Assembly (NCBI GenBank): GCA_026387965.1
Contig: JAPLKR010000107.1
Coordinates: 1-18,610 of the forward strand
Direction: 5' to 3'
DNA from: Fusobacteriota bacterium
GTDB taxonomy: Bacteria; Fusobacteriota; Fusobacteriia; JAPLKR01
Length of the DNA stretch: 18,610 bases
Positions 111-18,610 of the stretch are shown here, piece by piece. How positions within the stretch are numbered: the first letter of the stretch is position 1; each line of letters starts with the position of its first letter. A model generated the notes under the pieces. The model did no database searches and was not told the DNA's origin. It saw only the letters and a program-made list of their open reading frames with translations. The position numbers and the translations under genes are program-made.

Positions 111-515
111 ATAATTTATCTGATTTATTGTGAGATGCTCAACGATATTTTCTACTGCAGCAAAGCAATTTTTCTTTAGAAATTAAAAAATTAAACCGTA
201 TTTTGACATGTGTGAGCATTCGCGAAGATGCAAATTTATAGGATCTCGTTATTACAAGTTCGGCAGTAAAACTTGATGGAATTTCAAACTCGTATGTCGA
301 TAAGGACTTTCTAGCCCCCATCTTTTTTTCTCTCATGGGCGCTTCAAAAATGTCCTCACTTCCTTGCCATTATGCTATTACTGCTACTTCTGATATTTTT
401 TGGTCCGAAAAGAACGATGTGACAACTATTCCGATTATATACTCTTTGCTCTTCAAGTGGCAAGAAATGTACCCTTAGAGATTCAAAAGTTCGTTATATT
501 TTTCTTTTAATAATA
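111..515 (+). pseudogene. decayed nucleoside (uridine) phosphorylase, plus strand
   Basis: Conceptual translation across frameshifts aligns with the intact uridine phosphorylase at 1775-2560. AIFL*KLKN*T matches AIELHKLGVET; after a frameshift near 197, IREDANL*DLVIT matches IKEKINLGDICIT; SSAVKLDGISNSYVD matches RAAVKLDGISREYVD; ITATSDIFW matches ITASSDTFW. After another frameshift near 420, DNYSDYILFALQ matches DNYSGYLLRSLQ. In-frame TAG and TAA codons and at least two frameshifts rule out a working enzyme. The N-terminal part with the GDPxR phosphate loop and the C-terminus are not recognisable. The orientation is opposite to the intact copies, so this is a separate dispersed paralogue or an inverted duplicate, not a tandem copy. 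Start and end are approximate. Confidence 0.8.
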
Positions 516-535
516 ATCTGTTTCACACGACGTAT

Positions 536-569
536 AAAGAAAAATCTCTCACATGAGAGATTTTTCTTT
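536..569 (-). terminator. perfect 15-bp hairpin ending the cytidine deaminase operon
   Basis: The arms aaagaaaaatctctc (536-550) and gagagatttttcttt (555-569) are exact reverse complements around the four-base loop acat. The U-rich descending arm makes a typical intrinsic terminator for the minus-strand operon. The stem overlaps the last two bases to be transcribed before the end of the cdd stop codon (568-570). Because it is symmetrical it could also stop plus-strand transcription arriving from the decayed phosphorylase. Confidence 0.85.
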
Positions 570-960
570 ATTTATAATTTGAGAAACCAAAAGGAAATAC
601 TTCTTTTAAGGTATGGATTTTATAATCGCCGTTTGGTTTTGAAACAATAATATGTCCTTCACTCGGCATAAATTCACACAAAACTTGCCTACACACTCCA
701 CAAGGATAGATAAAGTCACTCTCTAAATCGCTTGCAATAGCAATTTTGACAATTTTTCTGTGTCCTTCAGATATTGCTTTTGATACAGCCACTCTTTCTG
801 CACAAATTGTTGGGGTAAACGATACACTTTCTATATTACACCCCGTATATAATGTCCCATCTTCTGTAAGAAGTGCCGCCCCTACTTTAAATCCTGAATA
901 CGGATTGTAAGCATTTTCTTTTGCTTTTATTGCTAATTCAACTAACTCTTTATCTGTCAT
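568..960 (-). CDS. cdd: cytidine deaminase
   Basis: Hydrolytic deamination of cytidine and deoxycytidine to uridine and deoxyuridine in pyrimidine salvage; cytoplasmic. At 130 residues it has the length of the small homotetrameric zinc type. The catalytic block CAE (Cys53, Glu55) and the zinc pair PCxxC (Cys87, Cys90) are both present, as are the N-terminal AYNPYSGFKVGAAL substrate segment and the CNIE motif near residue 41. It is the last gene of a four-gene minus-strand operon, 20 bp after the phosphorylase paralogue, with GAGG ahead of its ATG. Its product feeds the uridine phosphorylase encoded two genes upstream. A second, decayed deaminase-fold gene lies at 13537-13877. The call is secure. 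Confidence 0.97.
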   Translation of the reverse strand: MTDKELVELAIKAKENAYNPYSGFKVGAALLTEDGTLYTGCNIESVSFTPTICAERVAVSKAISEGHRKIVKIAIASDLESDFIYPCGVCRQVLCEFMPSEGHIIVSKPNGDYKIHTLKEVFPFGFSNYK

Positions 961-980: not shown

Positions 981-1766
981 TTAATAATTTTTATATACAG
1001 TTCTGAGAATTTTACCCCACTTTTCAACTCTTTCAGTAGGATTAGGCTGTATCTCACTACGAATACTGCCTTCTTCAAAATTTCGCATTACGATATCTAA
1101 AATAGCAGCGCTCTTTAAACCAAATACATTACAAATGGTAAACATTGCGGATACCGCATTATCCATACAATGAACTTTCTGTTTTCTCCATTTTTTAAGC
1201 AACTCTCTATATAACTCTTCATTTAAATAATCAAAAATGTGTTCAGTTGTGTTTTCAACTGGCCAAAGCATATCTACTGACACCGTTACACCTGCAACAT
1301 AAGGAATTTGTGCTTCATCAAAAGCACCTCTAACCACTTGAGTCAATGATAAACTGGCTGCAGCTGGGTAGTTCAGTGGAGCATAATGAAGTGAGGTTCC
1401 TTCTTTTCGAATTGCCCCCATTGATATTACAAAATCACCAATATTTAGTCCATACTGAATTGCGCCAGCTTCCCCTACACGTATAAAATGCTTAAGCCCA
1501 ACCATCGCCATCTCTTCTAAACCTATGCCCAACGGAGGTGCTCCAAATCCTGTGGATGCAATTACAACTTTTTTACCTGCTACCGTTACAAGATATGTCA
1601 AATATTCTCTATTATCTGAAATAAACTTTGCATTTAAATCAAGCTCTTTAGCAAGTAGCTCTACATACTCTGAATTATCTAGTAGCACCGCATGCTCAGC
1701 AAACTCTATCATCTCTGGTGAAAATCCTATATGATATAAAATTTCATCTTTTGGAACTAATTTCAT
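981..1766 (-). CDS. uridine phosphorylase-like paralogue with degraded active site (probable pseudoenzyme)
   Basis: Full-length (261 residues) member of the hexameric nucleoside phosphorylase fold: STGFGAPP near 71, FIRVGEAGAI near 94 and IGDFVI near 109 line up with uridine phosphorylase. Key residues are replaced, numbered as in E. coli Udp: the phosphate loop GDPxR (Gly26-Arg30) is DNSEY; Thr94 is Glu99; uracil-binding Phe162, Gln166 and Arg168 are Leu167, Glu171 and Thr173; ribose-binding Glu196-Met197-Glu198 is Asp-Asn-Ala (202-204). It keeps Arg96 (Arg91) and also His12 and Arg53, equivalents of His8 and Arg48, which in this family reach into the neighbouring subunit's active site. AGGAGG precedes the ATG, 8 bp after the active paralogue, and there are no internal stops. 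Inference: a non-catalytic partner or regulator of the active enzyme. An altered substrate is the main alternative. Confidence 0.85.
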   Translation of the reverse strand: MKLVPKDEILYHIGFSPEMIEFAEHAVLLDNSEYVELLAKELDLNAKFISDNREYLTYLVTVAGKKVVIASTGFGAPPLGIGLEEMAMVGLKHFIRVGEAGAIQYGLNIGDFVISMGAIRKEGTSLHYAPLNYPAAASLSLTQVVRGAFDEAQIPYVAGVTVSVDMLWPVENTTEHIFDYLNEELYRELLKKWRKQKVHCMDNAVSAMFTICNVFGLKSAAILDIVMRNFEEGSIRSEIQPNPTERVEKWGKILRTVYKNY

Positions 1767-1774
1767 TTATCCTC

Positions 1775-2560
1775 CTATTGAATTAACCCATTACGCTTCA
1801 TATCTATAATTAACCCTGCCTTAAGCGTCTTCTCCCAGTGCATTTGGGCTTTTTCTTTACCTTCATGGTTCGGCTCTTCACTCTCAGTTCTTTTGGCAAT
1901 AATTCCACAAAAACACGCTGCGCGAACATCTAATACTTTTGCAATTGTAAGAAGTGCCGAAGCCTCCATTTCAAAATTAGCGACATTTAGGGCTCTCCAC
2001 TCTGTTATTGCACCTTGAAGTGAACGCAGTAGATACCCCGAATAATTATCATGCCGTTCTTGACCTGGCCAAAATGTATCAGATGAAGCCGTTATTCCTA
2101 CATAATGGGGGATTTTTTCTTGTTTCGCGCCATCAACAAAAGCTTGAGTTAAAGCAAAATGTGCTACAGCAGGATATCCTTCGTCAACATATTCACGAGA
2201 AATTCCATCTAATTTAACCGCTGCTCGGGTAATACAGATATCTCCTAAATTTATTTTTTCTTTGATCGTTCCTGAGGTTCCCAAACGAATATACGTTTCA
2301 ACCCCTAATTTATGAAGTTCAATAGCTGTCACACTAATTGCAGGACATCCCATTCCAGTGCTTACTACCAAAACATTTACACCCTCTAGATTAGCCAAAT
2401 ACGAAGCATGTTGACGATTAAATGCTAAAAACTTTGCATTCGGATCTAACATAAAAGCTAAATCTTTCGCTCTTTTGGGGTCTCCAGGTAGTACAGCATA
2501 CTTTGCTCCTGCAACCAATTCTTCAGTGAGGTGTGTTAAATACTGTTTATCACAATTCAT
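1775..2560 (-). CDS. udp: uridine phosphorylase
   Basis: Reversible phosphorolysis of uridine (and usually deoxyuridine) to uracil and ribose-1-phosphate; a cytoplasmic hexamer. The 261-residue protein has the complete family active site: phosphate loop GDPKR (26-30), Arg92 and Thr95 in RLGTSG, uracil contacts Phe163, Gln167 and Arg169 in DTFWPGQER, and the ribose-binding EME at 197-199. His10 and Arg49 correspond to the residues donated to the adjacent subunit. AAGGAG precedes the ATG. It sits 17 bp after a small membrane protein gene and 8 bp before its own degenerate paralogue, with cytidine deaminase next. A broader nucleoside range cannot be excluded, but GQER points to uracil nucleosides. 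Confidence 0.94.
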   Translation of the reverse strand: MNCDKQYLTHLTEELVAGAKYAVLPGDPKRAKDLAFMLDPNAKFLAFNRQHASYLANLEGVNVLVVSTGMGCPAISVTAIELHKLGVETYIRLGTSGTIKEKINLGDICITRAAVKLDGISREYVDEGYPAVAHFALTQAFVDGAKQEKIPHYVGITASSDTFWPGQERHDNYSGYLLRSLQGAITEWRALNVANFEMEASALLTIAKVLDVRAACFCGIIAKRTESEEPNHEGKEKAQMHWEKTLKAGLIIDMKRNGLIQ

Positions 2561-3112: not shown

Positions 3113-3141
3113 ATAATATCATATTTTTAGCATATATTAAA
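3113..3141 (-). promoter_or_regulatory. possible promoter of the pyrimidine salvage operon
   Basis: On the minus strand TTTAAT (3141-3136) and TATTAT (3118-3113) are 17 bases apart, about 30 bases before the start codon of the membrane protein gene. The -10 box is good and the -35 is weak. The stretch is AT-rich, so chance matches are likely. Confidence 0.35.
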
Positions 3142-11417: not shown

Positions 11418-12413
11418 TTAGCGTTCAACAATTTTTACAATCCATTTACTCATCATCTCTTGTTGAAAATGTATCGAACGAATTTGAATTTCAATCTTAC
11501 TTTTTTCCAATAACTCCTCTTGATTTTTCATGACCATTTTCATTTGACAAAATCTATCGGAAAGTTCTTCGCTTCTTCTAATTTCAACACTATCGCTCTT
11601 TAAAAAGCTTAATATTTCAGTGTTTGTATCACTTAATATCTTCAAGATATTCTGATACTCATGAAGTTTTTCTTGCGAGAGTGTTGAGCTTTCTAAAACA
11701 TCATATAAATTTTCCAATTCAAAAAGAAGAATATTTAACGTTTTTTTCAGTCTAAGCAAAATCGTATAACGTTTTTGTTTAAATAAATTTTCGTATCGAA
11801 TATTATTAATAATAGAGTGAATCTTTTTCTTTGCTTGAATTAATTCGGCAAAAGAGCGAATTTCCATCTGGCTATTTTTGCTATCTGTAAATTGTGATAT
11901 CGAGACAATTCTCTTTCCTACAATTTCAAAAAGTGCTATCAGTTCATTTTGAAGTCGCCTATTTTCTTTAATGGGAAATAGCTGTGAAACGATAATTACA
12001 ATAACTGCCCCTATGCCTGTCTCATAAACACGCATAGATAAAACTTGAACACTCCAACCCCCTATGGAACTATATAAAAAGACGACCAAAAATACGCTAT
12101 AAAATATACTCCAAGCATAAGAACGTAGAAGGTAATAAAACATTAAATAGGTAAAAATAAAAATAATTATCAAATATACATAGAAACTAGGATGAAAAAA
12201 TGTCCCCAATAAAGTTCCTAATAACCCCGCTACAATCGTTGTAAGTAGTCTAGAAATAGCTCTCGAATTACTCTCACCTTGGCCACTGGAAAACAGATAT
12301 AAAATTGTCATTGGGCACCAATATGATTTGTCTAAATGAGAAAAATGCATTACTATTTCAGAAATTAATATCGCTAATGTAACCTGAATAGCTAGACGTG
12401 TTGTGTTTAACAT
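11418..12413 (-). CDS. FUSC-type membrane protein, half-size, second partner
   Basis: A 331-residue protein with about six membrane segments in residues 5-165 followed by a long helical cytoplasmic part (about 170-331) rich in Lys, Glu, Gln and Leu. Features such as LDKSYWCPMTILYLFSSG, RLLTTIVAGLLGTLLGT and RVYETGIGAVIVIIVSQLFP match the aromatic acid exporter/FUSC superfamily (AaeB, YccS, FUSC). Full-length members of about 650-700 residues carry two such transmembrane-plus-helical halves; this is one half. Its ATG overlaps the stop of the preceding 343-residue gene (ATGTTAA), implying translational coupling and equal production. The two together (674 residues) equal one full-length exporter. 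The substrate is not predictable from sequence. Confidence 0.82.
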   Translation of the reverse strand: MLNTTRLAIQVTLAILISEIVMHFSHLDKSYWCPMTILYLFSSGQGESNSRAISRLLTTIVAGLLGTLLGTFFHPSFYVYLIIIFIFTYLMFYYLLRSYAWSIFYSVFLVVFLYSSIGGWSVQVLSMRVYETGIGAVIVIIVSQLFPIKENRRLQNELIALFEIVGKRIVSISQFTDSKNSQMEIRSFAELIQAKKKIHSIINNIRYENLFKQKRYTILLRLKKTLNILLFELENLYDVLESSTLSQEKLHEYQNILKILSDTNTEILSFLKSDSVEIRRSEELSDRFCQMKMVMKNQEELLEKSKIEIQIRSIHFQQEMMSKWIVKIVER

Positions 12414-13438
12414 GAACCCTCCAGAAAATGACTATAGATTTTTTCAATATCTCCAGATAGTCCTCTAATTGAAAACAAAAGTTCTGTTAATTCTGTCTGA
12501 GTAACTTGATTTCTAGTTTGAATTTTTTGCAATCTCAAATAAATAAGTTGAAAAATAGACTCCATCTTTCTCTTAGAAATATCATCACTGTTCTTTAAAC
12601 AAATTTTAAAACTTTTTAAAAATCTCTGTATCAGTTCAATAATTTCCTTAGTTGACATCTCTAACTCGATTAAATGAAGTATACTCTCTTCTAAAAGGTT
12701 AAATTTTTTAATAATCGAGTGGTGAAGTGCCACATCTTGATACAACAGTTCTGTTTCTTCTTGAGTAAAGTCGGAATTCTTAGGAAGCTCTGTTATCGCA
12801 CCAATAAACTGAAAATAATCTTCATGGAATCTCTTTTTATGTCTTTTATAAAAAAAAATATTTGATTTTTTAAGCTTCGTCAATTCAATCAGTTTTCTTG
12901 TATAATAGTCATACGCTTTTACAAATCTTTTATGGATTTTTTTTATGTAAAGAAAATCACTCTCTGGATAAAAAAAATAATTAATCAAAAAATATACGAG
13001 CAACCCAAAAATCCCCACCAATACAACCACCCACTCGTACCCTTGAACCATTTTTAAGTTGAATGAGAATATCAAATAATCTACGATAGCATATTTCATA
13101 ATTTGAGACTGTATTGTTGTTTTATATTTTAAAATATAAAAGGCAAAAAAACTTGAAATAAGTACAAATATCATTGATATCACATAGAATTTTGAAAGAT
13201 AACATCCTAACATAGAATACCCAAGTAATATGAGGGCATTTACCCAAAACTTTCTCATCAATTGCTTTCTTGATAAAGCATAGAGCGCAATTCCTATTTC
13301 TAAATTATATACAAAAACTAGAACAGATAGCCCATAATTTCGAAATAATCCTTGTATAATAAATGCTGGCACACACAGTGACAGCGCCATTTCAAAACTT
13401 TTTATTATCGAATTTTTCCTTATAACTGTTATGTACAT
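12407..13438 (-). CDS. FUSC-like membrane protein, half-size, first partner
   Basis: A 343-residue protein with about six membrane segments in residues 14-157 (for example SVLVFVYNLEIGIALYALS and VVLVGIFGLLVYFLINYFFYP) followed by a basic, helical cytoplasmic region with several Leu/Ile heptad-like stretches. The order of parts is the same as in the next gene, with which it overlaps by seven bases, but the sequence is more divergent and lacks a clear RxxET motif. The YFFYPESDF exit from the last membrane helix is like the LFP exit in FUSC proteins. I infer that it is the N-terminal half of a split FUSC exporter; recognition rests mainly on architecture and pairing. AGGAG precedes the ATG. No clear promoter is seen upstream, where remains of a decayed deaminase lie. 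Confidence 0.78.
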   Translation of the reverse strand: MYITVIRKNSIIKSFEMALSLCVPAFIIQGLFRNYGLSVLVFVYNLEIGIALYALSRKQLMRKFWVNALILLGYSMLGCYLSKFYVISMIFVLISSFFAFYILKYKTTIQSQIMKYAIVDYLIFSFNLKMVQGYEWVVVLVGIFGLLVYFLINYFFYPESDFLYIKKIHKRFVKAYDYYTRKLIELTKLKKSNIFFYKRHKKRFHEDYFQFIGAITELPKNSDFTQEETELLYQDVALHHSIIKKFNLLEESILHLIELEMSTKEIIELIQRFLKSFKICLKNSDDISKRKMESIFQLIYLRLQKIQTRNQVTQTELTELLFSIRGLSGDIEKIYSHFLEGSC

Positions 13439-18033: not shown

Positions 18034-18110
18034 TTTTTTCCTTTTTATATACGCACTTTTAATTTAAGCTTTTAATCCTTTTATTCAGTAAATATCGACT
18101 TCGTCAGTCC

Positions 18111-18610
18111 TTGTATAGAAAATATAGCAAAGAATTCAAAGAACAATTAGTAGCGCTCATAATGGGACGAAATTAAATGTAATAAGGCGTAATAGCCATA
18201 AATATTCGATATCTGCAATGTGTAAAATATTACAAGTCCCAAGAAGTAGTTATTACTATGAAAGCAAGCTTGAAATTCCGGATGAAACAATTCTAAAAGA
18301 ATTAATAATAGAAATTTTTTAGAAATAGCAGAAAAAATTATGGCACAAGGAAAATCAAGCAAGAACTGATGATTCATAACCATCAAATATTCCGAAGAAT
18401 ATGATGTAGCTATTAGTGATTTAACTTATGTTCGAGCAAATCGAAAATGGCATTATATCTACCTAATCATAGATTTGTTTAATAGAGAAATCATAGGTCA
18501 TAGTGCTGAAGTACACAAGAATACTAATCTGTTACTTGAAGCTTTTAGCAGTATTCAAGTCTCATTAAAAAAAATCACACTTTATTATACTGATAGGGGT
18601 AGTGAATTCA
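18111..18610 (+). mobile_element. IS3-family insertion sequence remnant (decayed orfA/orfB, runs off the edge)
   Basis: Plus-strand pieces match IS3-family transposases of the IS150-like group. An orfA start-like fragment (RKYSKEFKEQLVAL) at 18117-18158 is followed after a large gap by orfB fragments: HKYSISAMCKILQVPRSSYYYE from about 18196, RKNYGTRKIKQEL in a shifted frame near 18315-18370, then in another frame YSEEYDVAISDLTYVRANRK. ISDLTYV (Asp at 18418-18420) and YTDRGSEF (Asp near 18590) are the first two residues of the DDE integrase triad; the final Glu would lie beyond the window. Most of orfA is missing and orfB has a stop and at least two frameshifts before the catalytic core, so it cannot transpose by itself. 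No terminal inverted repeat was found on the left side. Confidence 0.85.

Follow-up and report, generated by a model that had tools for sequence, protein, structure and literature searches.

A possible two-gene uridine phosphorylase in a Fusobacteriota genome: a paralogue without a pocket keeps residues normally lent to a neighbouring subunit

Complexes of an enzyme with a pseudoenzyme are known in few families, of which the trypanosome cases are the best studied. In Trypanosoma brucei, formation of the DHSc/DHSp complex gives ~3000-fold activation (PMC3663545), and in bacteria the metformin hydrolase MetCaCb is a heterohexamer of an enzyme and a pseudoenzyme, neither of which is active alone (PMC11271267). 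The uridine phosphorylase Udp (NP-I, EC 2.4.2.3) of E. coli, Salmonella and Shewanella, which has the same fold as the two proteins described here, has an inter-subunit active site to which the neighbour lends His8 and Arg48. The corresponding residues of Phytophthora capsici UP1, His19 and Arg59, also come from the neighbouring subunit, where they bind the ribose 5′-hydroxyl and phosphate, and Arg59 variants lose activity (PMC7271239). In human UPP1, His36 and Arg94 are contributed across the interface together with Tyr35 (PMC2939078). The title of a study of a Schistosoma mansoni uridine phosphorylase isoform suggests a non-canonical function (da Silva Neto 2016, Biochimie; cited in PMC7271239 and PMC7226091).

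We analysed a window of 18,610 nt, contig JAPLKR010000107.1 of a Fusobacteriota bacterium, and all positions refer to this whole stretch (Table 1). A compact cassette on the minus strand encodes, in order, a predicted membrane protein, the uridine phosphorylase homologues P2 and P1, and a cytidine deaminase. P2 and P1, each of 261 aa and each matching PF01048, are ~30–31% identical; their genes are separated by 8 bp, and the stop codon of P2 shares bases with TAGGAGG, the ribosome site of P1.

Table 1 Features of the P1–P2 locus and decayed copies in the window
Feature	Position	Strand	Remark
P1	981..1766	-	261 aa; uridine-phosphorylase-fold pseudoenzyme (by sequence); pocket lost, lent residues kept
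P2	1775..2560	-	261-aa uridine phosphorylase (by pocket); pocket complete, H8L and E49Q
cdd, cytidine deaminase	568..960	-	Closes operon
Predicted membrane protein, 168 aa	2578..3084	-	Opens operon; no family matches
Promoter-like site, extended -10	3113..3140	-	Upstream of operon; consensus match only
Terminator-like stem, 17 pairs	534..571	not assigned	After cdd
Terminator-like stem	3248-3223		Precedes cassette
P1 Tyr11-His12 (equivalent of Phe7-His8)	1731..1736	-	Lent to partner's ribose site in the family
P1 phosphate loop DNSEY	1665..1679	-	GDPxR in the family; sequence alignment
P1 Arg53-Glu54 (equivalent of Arg48-Glu49)	1605..1610	-	Kept; sequence alignment
P1 uracil site	1248..1268	-	Lost: F162L, Q166E, R168T; sequence alignment
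P1 ribose site	1155..1163	-	Lost: E196D, M197N, E198A; sequence alignment
P2 codon TTA (Leu8)	2537..2539	-	His in 107/107 readable intact relatives
P2 codon CAA (Gln50, equivalent of Glu49)	2411..2413	-	Glu49 in 110/110 intact relatives
Decayed P2-like udp remnant	173..462 (approx.; within 1-540)	+	Frameshifts, stops; tblastn
Broken IS3-like transposase remnant	18080-18610	+	At contig end; pieces in several frames

P1 matches PF01048 with an E value of 1.2e-24, which places it in the NP-I fold; its closest solved relatives are uridine phosphorylases. The AF2 model (pLDDT 89.9) shows a confident uridine phosphorylase fold, and its top Foldseek match is the uridine phosphorylase 4yjk_A (TMt 0.90). 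We aligned P1 with E. coli Udp and use the numbering of that enzyme, in which the assignment of His8 and Arg48 as the lent positions was taken from a preliminary description of the locus and the alignment. P1 carries the substitutions G26D, D27N, R30Y, T94E, F162L, Q166E, R168T, E196D, M197N, E198A and R223N. The phosphate loop and Thr94 are replaced by DNSEY and Glu, the uracil-binding Gln166 and Arg168 by Glu and Thr, and the ribose-binding Met197-Glu198 by Asn-Ala. P1 aligns without gaps in this last region and is firmly anchored downstream of it, but the predicted helix of P1 begins some two residues before that of P2, so that Asp202 of P1 may sit somewhat differently from Glu196. Most of the pocket positions that P1 lost are nearly invariant among 106 homologues, all of which have Arg48, Arg91, Met197 and Glu198. 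Losses were concentrated in the protein's own pocket, with 15 of 16 conserved residues gone compared with 14 of 49 conserved residues elsewhere (Fisher p 4e-6). P1 retains His8 (H12), Arg48 (R53) and Arg91 (R96). The preliminary description had listed the loss of the GDPxR loop, the threonine, the uracil residues and the ribose glutamate, the retention of these three residues and a fully open reading frame, and our alignment and reading-frame analysis bear it out on each. The score of P1, 153 bits, lies below the NCBIfam equivalog cut-off of 262 (NF008383). A start-site or frameshift artefact was ruled out, as the frame is intact and has its own ribosome site. We conclude that, judged by its defining residues, P1 is not a uridine phosphorylase, and that its previously proposed status as a pseudoenzyme is well supported by the sequence.

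P2 keeps all 16 conserved pocket residues and loses none (p 0.03 compared with the rest). Its AF2 model (pLDDT 88.8) is likewise a confident uridine phosphorylase fold and has uridine phosphorylases as best Foldseek matches, and its score of 251.7 bits is just under the uridine phosphorylase cut-off. At position 8 it has Leu, whereas every readable intact relative of an extended set has His; at position 49 it has Gln in place of the Glu of intact relatives. In P1 the two sites are still His and Glu. In the E. coli and Salmonella enzymes, Glu49 helps to bind the potassium ion that sits at the dimer interface. Misalignment of Leu8 was ruled out, since the stretch has no gaps and is held in register by Tyr7 and the Gly-Ala that precedes the phosphate loop. 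Of the two lent residues P2 still has Arg48, and the part of His8 might be taken by its His10, which lies two positions further on. From H8L and E49Q we predict that P2 alone would be impaired. P2 is a uridine phosphorylase by its pocket, yet it lacks the lent His8; its earlier portrayal as the active twin of P1 holds for the complete pocket, but Leu8 and the Gln at position 49 weaken that premise.

An alignment of 33 diverse uridine phosphorylases has 65 columns conserved at ≥90%, and over these we compared the losses of the two proteins. P1 had lost 29 and P2 12, with a single column lost in both compared with 5.35 expected under independence (p 0.0046). This exclusivity is largely trivial because P1 lost the pocket that P2 kept; outside the pocket and lent residues, one shared loss compared with 3.28 expected (p 0.086) makes mutually exclusive loss only suggestive. 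Since P2 lost 12 of the 65 conserved residues, the loss of one residue such as His8 is in itself not improbable. The pattern fits an enzyme divided between two chains, without proving the division.

In a phylogenetic tree, P1 and P2 formed one clade (support 95/99) with six intact single-copy enzymes of the order to which Gammaproteobacteria bacterium GWE2_37_16 belongs. The end branches of P1 (~4.0 changes per site) and P2 (1.25) are long, most relatives having 0.1–0.4. Because both proteins share this clade with single-copy intact enzymes, they are probably paralogues from one duplicated gene that split its residues. On the simplest reading, such a gene was acquired and duplicated in tandem, and both copies then diverged fast, P1 the most. 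A sequence-pattern search of genome contigs and viral contigs found no orthologue of P1, and 98 genomes of the source genome's class, among which the source genome is the sole member of its own order, yielded ordinary relatives only. An alignment scan recovered 80 Udps, all ordinary and intact, and no second copy lay within 4 kb of any of them. No pair was present in Acidaminococcales, where 55 of 63 genomes have one copy each, or in the GWE2_37_16 order, where the close type occurs six times, always as a single copy; no synteny with the closest relatives was found. The pair is known from one draft genome, and homologues with the same substitutions beside an intact udp, which the preliminary description had proposed to look for, did not turn up in any of these searches. 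A relative in the GWE2_37_16 order encodes a divergent phosphorylase-like protein near udp (L177 1586-2425, L175 1291-2142), in which a GSxGR loop replaces GDPxR and Gln166 and Arg168 are missing. A long-branch phosphorylase-like protein in a genome of the same class as the source (L035, G032) has Gly at position 94 and the loop GDHAR.

We simulated neutral drift of the P2 frame to 45% identity in 200 runs, which produced a mean of 10.5 stops, at least four in every run and never zero. P1 is only ~30% identical to P2, yet has no stop. Since stops arose in all 200 simulations, P1 cannot be a long-decaying neutral relic. The codon-position GC of P1 (51/34/23%) is coding-like and similar to that of its neighbours. 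The simulation and the coding-type codon composition support the earlier proposal that selection keeps P1 open, but the searches gave no orthologue for a dN/dS comparison. Of five decayed genes reported before in the window, two were confirmed, a udp remnant and a transposase remnant. The former matches P2 (tblastn E 2e-17) and has no significant match to P1, and this decay of a third, P2-like copy indicates that spare copies do decay at this locus. The remnant lies past the terminator of the operon, oriented against it, and contains a P2-type 'KLDGIS.xYVD' stretch, not P1 sequence.

The source genome has three more PF01048 genes, which we read as encoding an MTA/SAH nucleosidase, a trimeric-type PNP and a DeoD-type PNP, and it has a UPRTase to use uracil. 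We found no PF00591 protein in it, an absence that is not final because the draft is 95.5% complete. Neither deoA/pdp nor trpD was seen, and the family was present in 14 of 14 control genomes. There is consequently no visible thymidine or pyrimidine-nucleoside phosphorylase of that other family, which leaves no visible means of phosphorolysing uridine to uracil other than P2, with or without P1; this route would also cover uridine from the adjacent cytidine deaminase. Elsewhere in the window, two tandem genes overlap on the minus strand (11418-12413 and 12407-13438); the first matches YccS/YhfK-type (FUSC-like) transporter models and the second is membrane-protein-like.

These observations suggest a route by which a uridine phosphorylase could have become divided. 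The gene would have been duplicated in tandem within an operon with cytidine deaminase, the phosphate, ribose and uracil pocket staying in P2. P1 would have lost its pocket while retaining the residues lent to a neighbour, His8 for the ribose 5′-hydroxyl and Arg48 for the phosphate, after which His8 would have been lost from P2. In a mixed P1:P2 dimer, probably within the usual trimer-of-dimers hexamer, His8 and Arg48 of P1 would complete the P2 site, the P1 site being dead. The analysis shows the residue losses, the intact frames, the predicted fold, the operon layout, the common ancestry and the lack of a PF00591 phosphorylase in the draft; the binding of P1 to P2, the stoichiometry of the complex, the need of P2 for P1 and a weak or absent activity of P2 by itself are inferred. 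We give an even chance to the proposal that P1 is an activating pseudoenzyme lending His8 and Arg48 to P2 in such a mixed dimer. That the two form an obligate two-component uridine phosphorylase, with pocket and cross-subunit residues parted between tandem paralogues, each missing the other's share, is put forward more tentatively. The mixed-subunit reading is the more strongly motivated because P2 itself lacks the lent His8. Against a divided enzyme count the retention by P1 of Arg91, a residue of its own pocket, and the retention by P2 of Arg48, along with the His10 that might replace His8.

In a different reading, P2 forms an active homohexamer, either tolerating Leu8 or with His10 in the role of His8, and P1 is a stand-alone sensor, a scaffold or an inhibitory or allosteric subunit. 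The complete P2 pocket and a score barely under the family cut-off agree with this, but P2 has lost a residue found in 107 of 107 readable intact relatives, and P1 keeps precisely the lent residues, which would be of no evident use to a free-standing sensor; we regard this arrangement as rather unlikely. P1 might instead be a copy that is being lost under relaxed constraint and has so far escaped interruption, with P2 doing all the work. Its very long branch and the nearby P2-like copy that has already decayed would suit such a fate. However, its losses are concentrated in the pocket instead of being spread, its codon-position GC is coding-like, its ribosome site overlaps the P2 stop codon in an operon, and drift to a higher identity than it now shows never left a frame open, all of which makes this improbable. 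We consider it very improbable that P1 has taken up a new reaction or a new substrate (that of a hydrolase, say, or of another nucleoside or sugar-phosphate enzyme), as might be imagined from a complete, confidently folded protein with a rearranged pocket (T94E, Q166E, Asp202), since it lacks not only the phosphate loop and base-binding residues but also the ribose-binding glutamate kept in 106 of 106 homologues, including divergent non-uridine branches.

An obligate pair with pocket and lent residues parted in this way would, as far as we found, be without precedent among the nucleoside phosphorylases of the NP-I family; in the open-access papers searched, we found no report of such a split in nucleoside phosphorylases. 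If true, it would give a residue-level view of how duplication of a homomer with shared sites can make a heteromer obligatory, in a textbook hexameric enzyme. P1 and P2 have two traits of enzyme–pseudoenzyme heteromers, being a duplicate pair (one clade, adjacent genes) in which one chain lacks the catalytic residues. T. brucei DHSc/DHSp joins a catalytically impaired chain to a dead paralogue, with active sites at the interface, and P2, with its predicted impairment, may work with P1 in a similar way; DHSc/DHSp belongs to another enzyme family, is eukaryotic, is encoded on different chromosomes and has been demonstrated experimentally (PMC3663545). In T. brucei AdoMetDC/prozyme, too, a dead paralogue activates its active twin, as is proposed for P1, but through relief of autoinhibition and not through lent catalytic residues (PMC5201418). 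MetCaCb, of the ureohydrolase superfamily, is likewise bacterial, with adjacent genes and a probable duplication, its heteromer being established where that of P1 and P2 is proposed; unlike the role suggested for P1, its pseudoenzyme caps the cavity without lending canonical residues (PMC11271267). Known Udps are homo-oligomers whose chains each have a pocket as well as the lent residues, whereas in P1 and P2 these appear to be divided over two genes.
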